Of a stretch of 47,288 bases of DNA, positions 20,319-25,356 are shown piece by piece (positions within the stretch are counted from its first letter, which is position 1; each line of letters starts with the position of its first letter). The DNA is from Silanimonas sp. (GTDB taxonomy: Bacteria > Pseudomonadota > Gammaproteobacteria > Xanthomonadales > Xanthomonadaceae). The translations under genes and the position numbers were made by a program. The notes under the pieces were generated by a model that saw nothing but the letters and a program-made list of their open reading frames with translations, made no database searches and was not told where the DNA came from. Where the stretch lies: NCBI RefSeq assembly GCF_027530345.1, contig NZ_JAPZQK010000061.1, positions 1-47,288 of the forward strand. The letters are read 5' to 3'.

Positions 20319-21830
20319 TTATTCGCCCTGCGCCTGCGAGTAGCCGCGCACGCCGTCGAAGGTGTAGAGGTTCTCGGTCTTCACCGCGTCGAAGCCGGCA
20401 TCCGCGATGCGCATCAGCAGCCGCGAGATGGCCTGCCCGTCGACGGTGTCGGCCTTGGCCGGGAAGCGGCAGCGCCAGTGGTCGGTACGCAGGGTCTGCG
20501 GGTTGCCGTTCGGGTAGACCTTCACGCCGCGGTTGGTGATCAGCGCGAGGCGGAAGTCGTCGCCGGCGAGGCCTTCGAGCGCCGCGCCGAGTTCGTTCGG
20601 GTCGCGGGTGTCGGTGTCCCAGTTCACGAACACATCGACGCCGACCAGTGCCTTCTTCGCATTGACGTGCGGCGGAATCGACACGTCCGGGTGCACCAGC
20701 GATTCCGGCTCGCGCTCGGGGTAGTCGACCGCGGCCATCTTGTTCGGCGTCTGCCCGAGGCGAGCAATGACGGCCTCGGCGAACTCGCGGGTGCCGACCT
20801 TCTTCGTGCTCACGCCGGCGCGGTAGATGTCGCCGGTGTGGAGGCCTTCTTCCAGTGCGCAGAGCCAGGCGTTGTGGATGTCCGTGGCGGGCTTCGAACG
20901 GCCGAGGTGCACCAGCATCATCACTGCGGAGAGCAGCAAGCCCGAGGGGTTGGCGATGTCCTTGCCGGCAATGTCCGGCGCGGAGCCGTGCACGGCCTCG
21001 AACATCGCGCAGTCGTGGCCGATGTTGGACGAGCCGGCGAGGCCGATCGAGCCGGCCACTTCGGCGGCGACGTCGGAGAGGATGTCGCCGTAGAGGTTGG
21101 GCGTGACCACCACATCGAAGTCGGTCGGACGACTGGCCATGCGCGCCGTGCCGATGTCGATGATCATGTGGTTCGTCGCGATTTCCGGGTACTGCGGCGC
21201 GATCTCGTCGAAGACCTTGTGGAACAGGCCGTCGGTGAGCTTCATGATGTTGTCCTTGGTCATGCACGTGACCTTCTTCCGCCCGTGCGCGCGGGCGTAC
21301 TCGAAGGCGTAGCGCACGATGCGCTCACAGCCGGGACGCGTGATCAGCTTCAGGCACTGCACCACCTCGTCGCTCTGGCGGTGTTCGATGCCGGCGTAGG
21401 TGTCCTCCTCGTTCTCGCGGACGATCACGACGTCCATCGTCGGGTGCAGCGCGGTCACGTAGGGGTGGTAGGACACGCAGGGGCGGAGGTTGGCGTAAAG
21501 GCCCAGCGTCTTGCGCAGCGTGACGTTCACCGACTTGTAGCCGCCGCCCTGCGGCGTGGTGATCGGGCCCTTGAGGATGATCTTGTGCTGGTCGATGGCC
21601 TGCCAGGTGTCCTCGCCGATGCCAGCCATCAGTCCGCCTTCGTAGGCCTTCAGGCCAACCGTGACGGCGTGGAAGGCGAGGGCCGGGTCGGCGGCCTTGA
21701 GGATGGCCAGCGTGGCGTCCATGATCTCGGGACCGATGCCATCGCCTGCGGCGACCGGGATGGTGGTGGCCGGCAGCGCGGCGGGGACGTAGCGGGGCGG
21801 GGCAAGGGATTCAGCGAGGACGGCGGACAT
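20319..21830 (-). CDS. icd: Isocitrate dehydrogenase, large homodimeric type
   Basis: The 503-residue product is an isocitrate/isopropylmalate-family enzyme. It has IPVAAGDGIGPEIM near the N-terminus, NEEDTYAGIEH, VVTPNLYGDILSDVAAEVAGS and AVHGSAPDIAGKDIANPSG. A ~140-residue C-terminal extension follows (VDVFVNWDTDTRDPNELG, ending GVRGYSQAQGE), as in the Thermus-like large ICDs. It oxidises isocitrate to 2-oxoglutarate in the TCA cycle, probably with NADP. GGAGAT lies eight bases before ATG 21830. The start almost abuts a divergent regulator gene. Confidence 0.93.
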   Translation of the reverse strand: MSAVLAESLAPPRYVPAALPATTIPVAAGDGIGPEIMDATLAILKAADPALAFHAVTVGLKAYEGGLMAGIGEDTWQAIDQHKIILKGPITTPQGGGYKSVNVTLRKTLGLYANLRPCVSYHPYVTALHPTMDVVIVRENEEDTYAGIEHRQSDEVVQCLKLITRPGCERIVRYAFEYARAHGRKKVTCMTKDNIMKLTDGLFHKVFDEIAPQYPEIATNHMIIDIGTARMASRPTDFDVVVTPNLYGDILSDVAAEVAGSIGLAGSSNIGHDCAMFEAVHGSAPDIAGKDIANPSGLLLSAVMMLVHLGRSKPATDIHNAWLCALEEGLHTGDIYRAGVSTKKVGTREFAEAVIARLGQTPNKMAAVDYPEREPESLVHPDVSIPPHVNAKKALVGVDVFVNWDTDTRDPNELGAALEGLAGDDFRLALITNRGVKVYPNGNPQTLRTDHWRCRFPAKADTVDGQAISRLLMRIADAGFDAVKTENLYTFDGVRGYSQAQGE

Positions 21831-21861
21831 TGTGCGATCTCCGAAACACGAAAAAGATGTC

Positions 21862-22272
21862 GTGAATATTGAAGCGCGAAAATCCGTGCGGCGCAAGCCC
21901 GTGGGTGAGTCGCGCGTGAAGGCTTCGCCCGCGAAGCCTGCGGCGAAGGCGGGATCAGGCACCCGGGCGATCTCGAAGCCGGTGGACACCGACGCCCCGT
22001 GGACTTTCCTCAGCAACCACACCCATGTGCTGGTGTGCCTCGCGGCGGACGCGGAACAGACGCTGCGCGACGTCGCCTCGAAGGTCGGCATCACCGAGCG
22101 CGCGGTTCAGCGCATCGTTGCCGAGCTCGAGGCCGCGGGCGCGTTGACGCGCGAACGCGACGGCCGGCGCAACCGCTACCGGCTCGACACCACGCTGCCG
22201 CTCCGCCACCCGCTCGAGAAGCACCGCAGCATCGGCGACATCCTCGCTCTCCTCCTCGGCAAGGGCCGATGA
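21862..22272 (+). CDS. Small winged-helix transcription regulator
   Basis: The C-terminal ~95 residues form a winged helix: HTHVLVCLAADAEQTLRDVASKVGITERAVQRIVAELEAAGALTRERDGRRNRYRL, then a helix ending ILALLLGKGR. The frame contains no ATG. GTG starts exist at 21832, 21862, 21901 and 21916. The first would lie one base from the divergent icd start. I chose 21862 after a purine-rich stretch, giving 136 residues; the Lys/Arg/Ala-rich N-terminal segment may not be translated. Four bases separate it from the kinase fusion, so they form an operon. Control of icd is inference. Confidence 0.65.
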   Translation: MNIEARKSVRRKPVGESRVKASPAKPAAKAGSGTRAISKPVDTDAPWTFLSNHTHVLVCLAADAEQTLRDVASKVGITERAVQRIVAELEAAGALTRERDGRRNRYRLDTTLPLRHPLEKHRSIGDILALLLGKGR

Positions 22273-22276
22273 CCGG

Positions 22277-25027
22277 ATGTCGGTAACGGATCCGAACCCG
22301 CGGGCTCCAGGCGAGGTGCCGCGCAGCGGCGTGCTGCGCTGGCCGGGTGCCGAATTGGACCTGCGCAGCGCGCAAGTGCGGCGTGGGCGGCAAGTGTTGC
22401 TACTCGACCGCTCGTCGTACGAGGTGCTGCTTGCCCTGCTGCTGCGTGCCGGACAGGTGCTCGGCAAGGACGATCTGCTCGACGCTGCGTGGCCCGGACG
22501 CGTCGTTTCTGAGAACTCGCTGGCCAAGGCGATCAGCCGGCTGCGTCGCGAGCTGGGCGACGAGGCCGGTGCACCGCTGCAGTCGGTCCATGGTTACGGC
22601 TATCGCTGGGCGGGCGAGGTGCACTGGGCAGAGTCCGAAACGCTGCCGCCCGCTCCCGCCGCCGAGCACGACTGGGTCGGTGCGGCGGTGCCGAACCGGT
22701 CGGGATGGACGTTCCGTCGCGTGCTCGGTCGCAGCGGGCACAGCATGGTGTTGCTCGCCGATTCCGTGGCGGGTGAGGCGCCGAGGGCACTCAAGCTCGG
22801 TCTCGGTGAAGATGGCTTGCGTCACGTGCGCCGGGAGGTCGCCCTGCATCGCTACCTCGCGGCCATCAACCATAGCGTGCCCGGCCTCGCGCCCGCGCTC
22901 GGCTGGCAGCTCGACGAGCCGCCCGTGTTCGTCGAGTACCCGTACTTCGAGGATGGTGACCTGGCGCGCTGGATGGCCGCGCGGACGGTCGGCGGCGGCG
23001 TGCCCTTGGAGCACCGCCTCGCCTTGCTCGCGCAGATCGCCGACACCCTCGGGGAACTGCACGCCGCGGGCGTCGTCCATCAGGACCTGAAGCCGGGCAA
23101 TGTCTTCCTGTCGCCGGACTCGTCGCTATCCGAAGGCTGGCGCACGGCCTTGGCGGACCTCGGCGGTGGCCATGCCTCGCCGCTGTCGCAGCAGACCGAA
23201 ACGCTCCTCGACGCGGACGTTCTCGTCGATGCCCGCCAAGCGTCCGCTCCCGGCGCGGGCGCCGCCCTCCACAGCGCCCCCGAGGTCCTGGCGGGTGGCC
23301 TGCCCACGCAGCGCAGCGATCTCTACGCGCTGGGCGTCCTCCTCTACCAGTTGGTCGTCGGGGACCTGCGGCGTCCGCTGGCGCCGGGCTGGGAGGCCGA
23401 TGTCGATGATCCGCTGTTGCGCGACGATATCCGCGCGTTGGCTGCACTCCGGGTGGAGGAACGCACCCTCGGCGCCCAGCAGTTGGCGCTGCACCTGCGC
23501 CAGCTGCCGGCGCGGCGCCTTGCCGCCGAAGCCCACGACGAGGCCGCGGCCCGCGAGCGCCTCGCCGCGCAGCAACTGCAGCGTCAGCAGGTCCGGCTGC
23601 GCCTGCTGGGAGCAGCGACGGCGGCCCTGTTCGTCGGGTTGGCCGTTGCCAGTTGGGCGGGCTGGCTGGCGTGGGACGCGCGGCGCGACGAGGCCGTGCG
23701 GCGCAGCGAGGCCCAGGCCGTGCTCGGATTCCTGACCGACGACATGCTCACCCGAGCCGATCCGTACCGCGGTGGCGACGCCGGGATCAGTTTGCGCAGT
23801 TCCCTCGATGCGGCGGCAGAGAAGATCGACGAGCGGCTCGGCGAGCGCCCCCTGGTCGCCGCGGCGGTGCATGCGTCGGTCGCCGAGGCCTACGAGTCCT
23901 GGGGCGAATACGCGAAGGCCGCGCGCCACCAGCGGTGGGCGATCGAGCGCACCGAGGGGGACAGCCCCGGTGCGGAGTCGCTGGCAGGCCAGCAGCGGCG
24001 TCTGTGCCAGTTGGAGCGGCTGGCCGGAAACCTGGAAGCCGCGCAGACCGCCTGCGACGCGGCCGTCGCCCTCGATCGGACCACCCTCGGCGCCGTTTCC
24101 GATGCCAGCCTCGTGGAGGGCGCGAAGCTGCTCTACGAAAGCGGGCGATGCGGCGAGGTGGTGGGCCAGCTCGGCTCGGTCCTCGCCGACGAACCGCGCC
24201 GGAGCCAGTTGCCTGCCGGGGTGGAAGCCGATGCGCGCTGGTTCATCGGCCTTTGCCAGAGCCGTATCGGCGAGGAAGGTGCGGCGGCGGAATCCTTCCG
24301 CGCCCTAGTCGCCCTGCGCGAGCGTGAATCCGGGCCCGACGATCCTCGGACGGCCTGGGCGCTTTCCGACTATGCGGAGGCGCTGGCCCGGGCCGGTCGC
24401 TTCGCCGAGGCGGGCGCCATCCTCGAGCGTCTGGATCGCCTGTTCCTGGATCGGCTGGGGCCTGACCACCCGGACTCGTTGGCGGTCGAGTATCGCCAGG
24501 GCCTGGTCGCGGCCGGGCAGGGTAGGGAAGACGAGGCGACGGGTTTGTTCGGCCGCGCGCATCGCGGATGGGGCCAAGCGCTGGGCGAACGCCACATCCT
24601 CACGGTGCTGGCGGGTTCCGAGCTGGCCCGCAGCTTGGCCCGGCAGGGCGACCGCCAAGGCGCGAGCGCCGTGATGGCGCGCCTGCAGCTCGTGGGACAA
24701 CCGGAGACGTTCGGTCGCGATGCGCGGGCCGTCGACATCCAGGAGCTTTGGGCCGAAACCCTGCTACTGCTGGGGCGCACCGAGGATGCGGCCCAGGCTC
24801 TGGCCGGCTTCCGGGCGAGGGCCTCCGAGGTCCTGCCGGACCACCACCCCCGCCTCGCGATGGCGCGTTGCTTCGAAAGCCAGATCGCGACGCGTCGAGG
24901 GCAGCTCGACCAGGCGGGCGTGGCCCTCAGCGCCTGCCGGTTGGGTCTCGCCCGGCTGGCTCCGGACGATTATCGGCGTCGCGCTCTGGCGGATGCGGAG
25001 CAGGCTGTGGACGCCATGATCCGCTGA
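22277..25027 (+). CDS. Winged-helix / Ser-Thr kinase / TM / TPR fusion protein
   Basis: The 916-residue product has four parts. Residues 20-115 are an OmpR/ToxR-type winged helix (SYEVLLALLLRAGQVLGKDDLLDAAW, then ISRLRRELGD, ending VHGYGYRW). Residues 143-410 are a Ser/Thr kinase with Lys173, Glu187, HQDLKPGN (Asp270, Asn275), DLG at 294-296, APE at 334-336 and SDLYALGVLLY. Residues 442-466 form a single membrane helix. The rest is helical TPR-like repeat. The ATP loop is degenerate (VLGRSGHS) and HRD is HQD. One helix would place the TPR part in the periplasm. Confidence 0.85.
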   Translation: MSVTDPNPRAPGEVPRSGVLRWPGAELDLRSAQVRRGRQVLLLDRSSYEVLLALLLRAGQVLGKDDLLDAAWPGRVVSENSLAKAISRLRRELGDEAGAPLQSVHGYGYRWAGEVHWAESETLPPAPAAEHDWVGAAVPNRSGWTFRRVLGRSGHSMVLLADSVAGEAPRALKLGLGEDGLRHVRREVALHRYLAAINHSVPGLAPALGWQLDEPPVFVEYPYFEDGDLARWMAARTVGGGVPLEHRLALLAQIADTLGELHAAGVVHQDLKPGNVFLSPDSSLSEGWRTALADLGGGHASPLSQQTETLLDADVLVDARQASAPGAGAALHSAPEVLAGGLPTQRSDLYALGVLLYQLVVGDLRRPLAPGWEADVDDPLLRDDIRALAALRVEERTLGAQQLALHLRQLPARRLAAEAHDEAAARERLAAQQLQRQQVRLRLLGAATAALFVGLAVASWAGWLAWDARRDEAVRRSEAQAVLGFLTDDMLTRADPYRGGDAGISLRSSLDAAAEKIDERLGERPLVAAAVHASVAEAYESWGEYAKAARHQRWAIERTEGDSPGAESLAGQQRRLCQLERLAGNLEAAQTACDAAVALDRTTLGAVSDASLVEGAKLLYESGRCGEVVGQLGSVLADEPRRSQLPAGVEADARWFIGLCQSRIGEEGAAAESFRALVALRERESGPDDPRTAWALSDYAEALARAGRFAEAGAILERLDRLFLDRLGPDHPDSLAVEYRQGLVAAGQGREDEATGLFGRAHRGWGQALGERHILTVLAGSELARSLARQGDRQGASAVMARLQLVGQPETFGRDARAVDIQELWAETLLLLGRTEDAAQALAGFRARASEVLPDHHPRLAMARCFESQIATRRGQLDQAGVALSACRLGLARLAPDDYRRRALADAEQAVDAMIR

Positions 25028-25356
25028 GTCAGCGCTTCGGTCTCCACTCAAGGCATTGTTTCATAAGGCTTTCATAACTCTTCAGAAATGCTCACGCTTG
25101 AGGAAAGCGTGAATCGGCGGCGGTTTGGCATCGTCACGCCACTCCGGGACGGGCAGTGGCGGTTCGAAGGGTGGGGACACCCGCATGGCAGGGAGCCAGC
25201 AAGGAGGCCGATAGCGCTGTTCGCCCCCGGGGCGATTCCACAGGAGGTGGAATCCAGGAGTTACAGGGGTTCAGATGACCACGAAGGCGCCGGTTCGGAA
25301 CCGGCGCCTTCGACTTTTCCGGGCCCCGAGTTTCGCGTGGGCGCTGACCACTGCCC
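25028..25356. other. Structured convergent spacer, 329 bases
   Basis: No convincing gene is seen. The stretch starts with an AT-rich direct repeat (tttcataa at about 25060-25077), then holds several inverted repeats: cacgct/agcgtg near 25092, gccact/agtggc near 25137, gggtg/caccc near 25171, gattccac/gtggaatc at 25234-25254, and the 14-bp stem at 25282-25312. It could encode a small structured RNA or simply terminate both flanking genes. Confidence 0.5.
25282..25312. terminator. Perfect 14-bp inverted repeat
   Basis: cgaaggcgccggtt pairs without error with aaccggcgccttcg around a 3-nt loop, followed on the plus strand by acttttcc. It lies 45 bases beyond the amidase stop and probably terminates from both sides. 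Confidence 0.7.

Follow-up and report, generated by a model that had tools for sequence, protein, structure and literature searches.

A single gene of Silanimonas sp. encodes a 916-residue protein that joins a winged helix-turn-helix (wHTH) DNA-binding domain, a Hanks-type kinase domain, one transmembrane (TM) helix and a tetratricopeptide repeat (TPR) region in one chain. The gene lies at 22277..25027 on the plus strand of the 47,288-nucleotide contig NZ_JAPZQK010000061.1 (assembly GCF_027530345.1), the whole of which we refer to as the window; its genome is designated G000, and other G and L numbers denote compared genomes and loci. On balance, comparative sequence analysis suggests that the protein is probably a CadC/ToxR-like membrane-tethered one-component regulator with an accessory kinase, which acts at TTCA direct repeats. 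Such a protein would hold its wHTH in the cytoplasm and a disulfide-bearing TPR sensor in the periplasm, with the kinase placed between the wHTH and the membrane, and a signal at the periplasmic TPR would alter either the dimer itself or its transmembrane posture. The wHTH would then bind TTCA direct repeats near its own gene and control the unit that follows them, namely a structured noncoding RNA in Silanimonas and an LpoB-type operon or a divergent gene in related genera. The kinase would not be the output itself; where active, it would tune the switch by phosphorylation or add an output, and in the S. lenta lineage it would serve as a pseudokinase scaffold. In Silanimonas, an autoregulated small wHTH protein encoded just upstream would set the expression of the operon.

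The limits of the gene follow from the open reading frame list, Pfam matches, orthologs and a structural model, and those of its domains from Pfam and the model, supplemented by key residues for the kinase. The wHTH domain, which is of the PhoB/ToxR type, spans residues 23-115 (22343..22621, plus strand, as for all parts of the gene), the kinase residues 142-412 (22700..23512) and the TPR region residues 476-916 (23702..25024). The corresponding Pfam matches all score above the cut-off: Trans_reg_C (PF00486) at residues 41-110 (E 1.6e-12), Pkinase at residues 205-363 (E 9.4e-12) and TPR_12 (E 1.3e-10). Hydropathy and the model place a TM helix at about residues 443-465 (23603..23671), within the only hydrophobic segment of the protein (peak at residues 443-461). 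The AlphaFold model, built from a 28-row alignment (mean pLDDT 84.4, pTM 0.52), shows winged-helix and kinase folds, a long helix that coincides with the membrane segment and is partly of low confidence (438-452), and a helical solenoid.

The initial annotation had described a product with this domain order, and this description is borne out, the gene being present and intact. A fusion of separate genes by sequencing error is excluded, because full-length orthologs (94% and 59-60% identical) occupy the same place in four other Silanimonas genomes, giving full-length proteins in five of the eight genomes of the genus. Relatives also occur elsewhere in the Lysobacteraceae and beyond; 41 of 247 family genomes hold one, a count that includes G193, which lacks the kinase, G065, which has TM-TPR only, and G128, which is without a wHTH. 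The protein scores far below the cut-offs of two equivalogs with a wHTH: it reaches 19 bits against a cut-off of 400 for the NCBIfam CadC equivalog (NF007540) and 31.2 bits against 589 for HilA/EilA (NF009037). Some relatives carry an extra domain between the wHTH and the kinase, whose fold looks nucleotide-cyclase-like by eye and which has no Pfam match in L014. The proteins with this domain lie at L014:652-3954 (plus), L015:1216-3690 (minus), L136:4247-7303 (plus) and L137:2934-5213 (minus); they include that of G128, in which the cyclase-like domain, kinase and TM helix are found without a wHTH.

Conservation is uneven along the chain. Between Silanimonas species, identity amounts to 86-89% in the wHTH, 59-67% in the kinase and 49-55% in the TPR region. 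As annotated initially, the window protein retains the key kinase residues Lys173, Glu187, Asp270, Asn275 and Asp294 (the last in a DLG motif) and has a degenerate glycine loop, GRSGHS, which departs from GxGxxG; the loop reads GRGAHS in G003 and G006. The change from HRD to HQD, also pointed out at that stage, is present as well; it is not by itself a sign of inactivity, as HQD keeps the catalytic Asp. The family alignment had 49 distinct rows with start codons chosen by rule, which cut L013, L014 and L059 at the N-terminus and makes the wHTH identity of L014 an artefact. Of 45 rows first counted as kinase-bearing, L073, L075, L076 and L078 (misaligned and without a kinase) were dropped, leaving 41. 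The Lys, Glu, HxD and Asn residues are kept in all 41 kinase rows and the DFG Asp in 39. The two exceptions, L004 and L005 (orthologs from S. lenta and KatS3mg127), also carry Arg in place of the catalytic-loop Lys. Between these two little-diverged sequences, dN/dS is 0.128 in the kinase, 0.127 in the wHTH and 0.125 in the TPR region; the DFG-less orthologs are thus still under purifying selection, consistent with retention of their kinase as a pseudokinase.

Other relatives have lost the kinase altogether. Four proteins combine wHTH, TM helix and TPR region without it: L071 (Sphingopyxis flava), L077 (Marinicaulis flavus), L074 (Luteimonas arsenica) and L134 (G193); in L071 and L074, Pfam matches the wHTH and TPR parts and finds no kinase. 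In a tree of 30 out of 45 clade-A and clade-B rows (all 23 of wHTH clade A and 7 of clade B) computed without the kinase columns, the four sit in two places within the kinase clade, and a tree that unites the 26 kinase rows is rejected (AU p 1.9e-47). One chromosomal locus displays the series directly. Between plsB and a ttcA-like PP-loop gene, the full protein is found in L061, L063, L064, L066, L111 and L112; the kinase is absent in L074, and in L135 both wHTH and kinase are gone, leaving a stand-alone TM-TPR protein beside plsB (L135:2133-3608, plus strand). The kinase-less relatives and this locus thus mark the kinase as a removable accessory module. The early proposal of a transcription factor, protein kinase and periplasmic sensor in one chain holds as to domain order.

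These data also bear on a different reading, in which the protein is an active PknS-like receptor kinase: the TPR region would sense, the kinase would phosphorylate partners (the small wHTH protein, for example), and the protein's own wHTH would do no more than position the kinase or be a substrate. The key residues present in the window protein and its relatives speak for this, as do the translational coupling of the small wHTH gene in Silanimonas and the precedent of PknS, a kinase-TM-TPR protein that works by phosphorylating EcfK, according to the available part of the source (PMC13147305). We nevertheless regard it as quite improbable, as four relatives keep wHTH, TM helix and TPR region without the kinase, the two orthologs without the DFG Asp still have the DNA motif and the RNA described below, the wHTH is the most conserved part of the protein, and the small gene is no general partner.

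The membrane topology is likely N-in with a periplasmic TPR region, so that this part of the initial annotation stands as probable. It is suggested by the cysteine content and by comparison with PknS of Xanthomonas citri, a kinase-TM-TPR protein whose TPR region is reported as periplasmic in the available text (PMC13147305). The number of cysteines after the TM helix is even in 38 of the 41 kinase-bearing relatives (28 of the 31 with any), and that before it in 18 of the 41; these counts are not independent on the tree. In the window protein, the six cysteines are all in the TPR region, after the TM helix, and the pairs 577/593, 625/660 and 865/887 are on adjacent helices of the model. Cys577 and Cys593 are both present in 17 of 49 rows and both absent in 32, a pattern that corresponds to one or two independent events.

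The best candidate for the DNA target of the large protein is a direct repeat, TTCATAAGGCT-TTCATAACTC-TTCAGAAA, located just 3' of its gene (25060..25088, plus strand). Repeats of the TTCATAACTTTTCAGGA kind lie upstream of two groups of Pseudoxanthomonas and Lysobacter relatives (L062, L063 and L114; L061 and L066), and none was seen in the upstream regions of a third group (L060, L065 and L072). Two 14-mers from these repeats were counted as exact matches in the 247 family genomes. The first, TCATAACTYTTCAG, occurs in seven genomes, once in each, with zero in the control. In the window, it lies about 45 bases 3' of the regulator gene, and G003 has it at the corresponding position; in G250, it precedes the regulator gene by about 100 bp. 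Three genomes have it ahead of an LpoB-type operon: G190 and G214, where the regulator is some 4.5 kb away, and G270, where the two are unlinked. The seventh match is in G141. The second, TTCAGAAGWTTTCA, occurs in eight genomes, again once each and with zero in the control: G001, G005 and G006 have it 3' of the regulator gene, G190 and G270 have it at the LpoB operon, and the other three are G028, G244 and G064. Of the 13 genomes with either 14-mer, 11 are among the 41 with a relative of the protein and ten have a clade-A relative; among the seven that lie outside the building of the patterns (G028, G064, G141, G190, G214, G244 and G270), four have one.

The repeat follows one type of wHTH. 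Allowing up to two mismatches within 400 bp, it is found beside 15 of 23 clade-A genes and beside none of 22 clade-B genes (Fisher p 1.9e-6, kinship ignored), and a recognition helix of the ENSLAKAISRLR type (ENS/T) is common to clade A and not to clade B. The 15 include the kinase-less L074 and L134 and the DFG-less L004 and L005. Its TTCA strand usually points to a possible target unit: the RNA in Silanimonas (possibly also in L063 and L114), the LpoB gene in L062, G190, G214 and G270, or a conserved divergent gene for a protein of 216-239 amino acids in L061, L064, L066 and L112. In L074, however, it points to the regulator gene itself. The LpoB assignment corresponds to PF13036 in L062 and L182, and the G214 and G270 copies are 81-92% identical to that of L182. 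Among the Lysobacter/Pseudoxanthomonas relatives, the LpoB-type secreted protein after the TTCA repeat lies at L062:169-3521 (minus strand), where further exported or TPR proteins follow it, and the same gene is found in L181, L182 and L184. The divergent 216-239-residue protein lies at L061:3059-3709 (minus strand), where it has no Pfam match.

Several observations weigh against the reading as a one-component regulator with an accessory kinase. The TTCA motif was picked out by eye, and some of the loci counted had also served to build the patterns; at clade-A loci outside pattern building, 5 of 13 match (L064, L074, L111, L112 and L134). Eight of the 23 clade-A genes (L006, L007, L059, L060, L065, L071, L072 and L077) have no repeat within 400 bp. 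In G000 and G003, the repeat also resembles a Pho box, and PhoB could therefore be the binder. With only one to three independent events behind it, the co-variation of cysteine pairs lacks significance on the tree. Finally, the key kinase residues are nearly always kept, with the counts given above; most of these kinase domains are therefore equipped to work, and the kinase may count for more than the accessory role assigned to it. The Pho-box likeness and the clade-A genes without a repeat, together with the matches in three genomes that have no clade-A relative (G064, G141 and G244), would fit a repeat that belongs to another regulator such as PhoB, with its adjacency to the gene due to chance and the RNA and the large protein linked by outside regulation. 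The clade-specific distribution of the repeat speaks against this, as does the occurrence of each 14-mer only once per genome, which leaves no many-site regulon among exact matches, and we give this explanation little credence.

If the large protein is such a regulator, its target unit in Silanimonas would be a candidate conserved structured noncoding RNA at 25090..25319 (plus strand; predicted transcript ends). Strong homologs of the DNA at 25055-25330 are confined to the five Silanimonas genomes with the regulator, where they lie directly 3' of it (E 6e-142 to 2e-23), and the best match in the three genomes without the regulator has an E value of 0.049. A covariance model likewise recovers the five loci (E 5e-35 to 2e-28); its best match in the other three genomes is 0.17, and G003 has weaker second matches (down to 0.0036) at other places. 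The candidate RNA is thus present in 5/5 Silanimonas genomes with the regulator and 0/3 without. Indels in its alignment are often not multiples of three, which argues against a coding region. In an alignment of five sequences from three lineages, from which the structure itself was derived, 92% of the cells in four helices are paired, and two-sided changes are seen in 12 cells, compared with 4.0 in shuffles (0/500 as high). As possible relatives of this RNA, both divergent from the regulator, we noted L114:1165-1304 (minus strand), with a full-length match of 26.7 bits, and L063:3673-3707, where the match covers the terminator hairpin only.

In the window, the RNA contains hairpins with a GAGGA loop (25092..25112), a GGGA loop (25169..25182) and an AGGAG loop (25234..25254), the last being a GGA-loop hairpin kept in 5/5 orthologs, and ends in a terminator-like hairpin (25282-25312; all plus strand) and ACTTTTC. 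With the terminator hairpin included, there are four GGA-loop hairpins in G000 (shuffle mean 0.61, p 0.005) and four in G003 (p 0.0025), two in G006 (p 0.12) and one each in G001 and G005 (not significant); the S. lenta RNA keeps one. Plain GGA counts do not exceed those of dinucleotide shuffles. The Rfam model PrrB_RsmZ (RF00166) gave 19.1 bits against a threshold of 44 (E 0.027 for 471 bases); a search of 20 kb that included this stretch gave nothing at E 1 or better, and four orthologous loci gave nothing at E 3 or better. The window copy shows a weak resemblance to Csr/Rsm small RNAs (sRNAs). CsrA is encoded in the window genome, and binding of RsmA by the RNA may be hypothesized. An extended chain, in which an envelope signal would act through a kinase- or pseudokinase-gated wHTH on a CsrA/RsmA-titrating RNA 3' of the gene in Silanimonas, appears rather unlikely as a whole; if true, it would connect periplasmic sensing with the Rsm system through a single protein.

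Another account would assign the conserved RNA to the regulator transcript itself, as a terminator structure or a long 3' untranslated region without a function in trans. It agrees with the position of the RNA directly 3' of the gene, with a consensus scan that found no sigma-70-type promoter, and with the frequency of RNAs from 3' ends in Xanthomonas, as far as the available text of PMC7694677 describes it. Structure with covariation across about 230 nt, the direct repeat just before the RNA and GGA-loop hairpins above chance in G000 and G003 count against it, and we consider it possible, if on the doubtful side.

The upstream partner of the large gene is a gene for a 136-residue protein with a winged helix of the HTH_24/MarR type (Pfam), placed at 21862..22272 (plus strand) from the open reading frame, Pfam and ortholog starts. 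Its start is likelier GTG 21862 than GTG 21832, because the ortholog in G006 has no start codon at the upstream position. As annotated initially, its stop at 22272 lies four bases before the ATG at 22277, and it diverges from icd, a gene named by similarity that encodes an isocitrate dehydrogenase of 503 residues (20319..21830, minus strand, start at 21830). Of the five genomes with both regulatory genes, two have the 4-base gap and three an ATGA/GTGA overlap, and the two genes are tightly coupled within Silanimonas. As a general pair, however, the proposed two-gene unit did not hold up. Matches to the small gene, some of them weak, were found in 21 of 60 relatives searched, and it stands beside icd with or without the kinase gene: divergent from icd in eight Silanimonas genomes (the G004 copy being cut by a contig end), kinase-less ones included, and in G020, G017 and G028 from three other genera. 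G028, G038 and G049 hold both kinds of gene, and among the matches listed these are on different contigs. The small wHTH gene is thus an older neighbour of icd, and the two-gene unit a Silanimonas arrangement.

The gap between icd and the small gene, put forward earlier as the first place to seek DNA targets, is better assigned to the small gene than to the large protein. It contains an inverted repeat, CACGA-N8-TCGTG (21847..21864), that overlaps the GTG start and goes with the small gene. Among 18 small-regulator loci, 15 have an exact upstream match to a relaxed form, YAYGA-N8-TCRTR, and L026, L032 and L034 are one mismatch off; in dinucleotide shuffles, exact matches arose in 0-1%, and the one-mismatch loci were matched in 5.5-17%. 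The survey covered 20 of 25 small-gene matches, the other five having no locus. The repeat is exact at loci without icd (L030, L033, L035, L036 and L037); two icd genes that lack the small gene do not have it upstream (L148 and L149, with 3 and 2 mismatches), and it is not found at two weak small-gene matches (L039 and L040). Genome-wide, the strict repeat is no commoner than the control. We infer that CACGA-N8-TCGTG is a candidate autoregulatory operator of the small wHTH gene. As to icd itself, G000 has two isocitrate-dehydrogenase-like genes, that of the window (20319-21830) and one at C58:184249-185244, and, among 40 relatives searched, 12 have a good match (at least 44% and near full length) to the type beside the small regulator.

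Searches of an open-licence PMC library aimed at the wHTH-kinase-TM-TPR order found no description of it, although one may exist in other print, and the decay series, the predicted site and the linked RNA were likewise not found there. The family offers a testable case in which a eukaryotic-like kinase module resides in a one-component regulator, decays there and is lost while the rest stays intact, and the natural deletions at a single locus can be compared. With a predicted DNA site, alternative targets and a conserved RNA, it can be tested directly what such bacterial kinase-TM-TPR receptors control.

Among known systems, CadC/ToxR-type regulators share the N-terminal OmpR/PhoB-type wHTH, the single TM helix and a C-terminal domain that is here probably periplasmic, and they use direct-repeat sites; the window protein differs from them by a Hanks kinase between wHTH and TM helix and by a TPR-solenoid sensor. 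HilA/EilA also have a wHTH, with a TPR-type C-terminus and neither kinase nor TM helix. The hairpin-loop GGA motifs and terminator-like hairpin of the window RNA recall Csr/Rsm sRNAs (RsmZ, CsrB and RsmU of Xanthomonas), from which it differs by a sub-threshold Rfam score that was not reproduced in the larger search or in orthologs. CsrB/RsmX/Y/Z homologues are reported absent from Xanthomonas by BLAST in the accessible part of the source (PMC7694677). PknS of X. citri, likewise from the Xanthomonadaceae, has the same kinase-TM-TPR order and a similar length (833 residues); as far as the available text goes, it has an 83-residue N-terminal extension where the window protein has its wHTH, with no wHTH described, and works via phosphorylation of the sigma factor EcfK (PMC13147305). 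In Mycobacterium, EmbR and PknH similarly combine an OmpR-type DNA-binding regulator with a membrane Ser/Thr kinase, but according to the accessible portion of the report they are two proteins joined via an FHA domain and not one chain (PMC4601284). In vWA-MoxR conflict systems, an S/T kinase domain is coupled to a wHTH; the part of the source at hand presents these as multi-gene systems, with no kinase-TM-TPR chain bearing an N-terminal wHTH (PMC7159879). Each part of the Silanimonas system is thus known, and what appears to be new is the domain order, the kinase decay series, the predicted site and the linked RNA.

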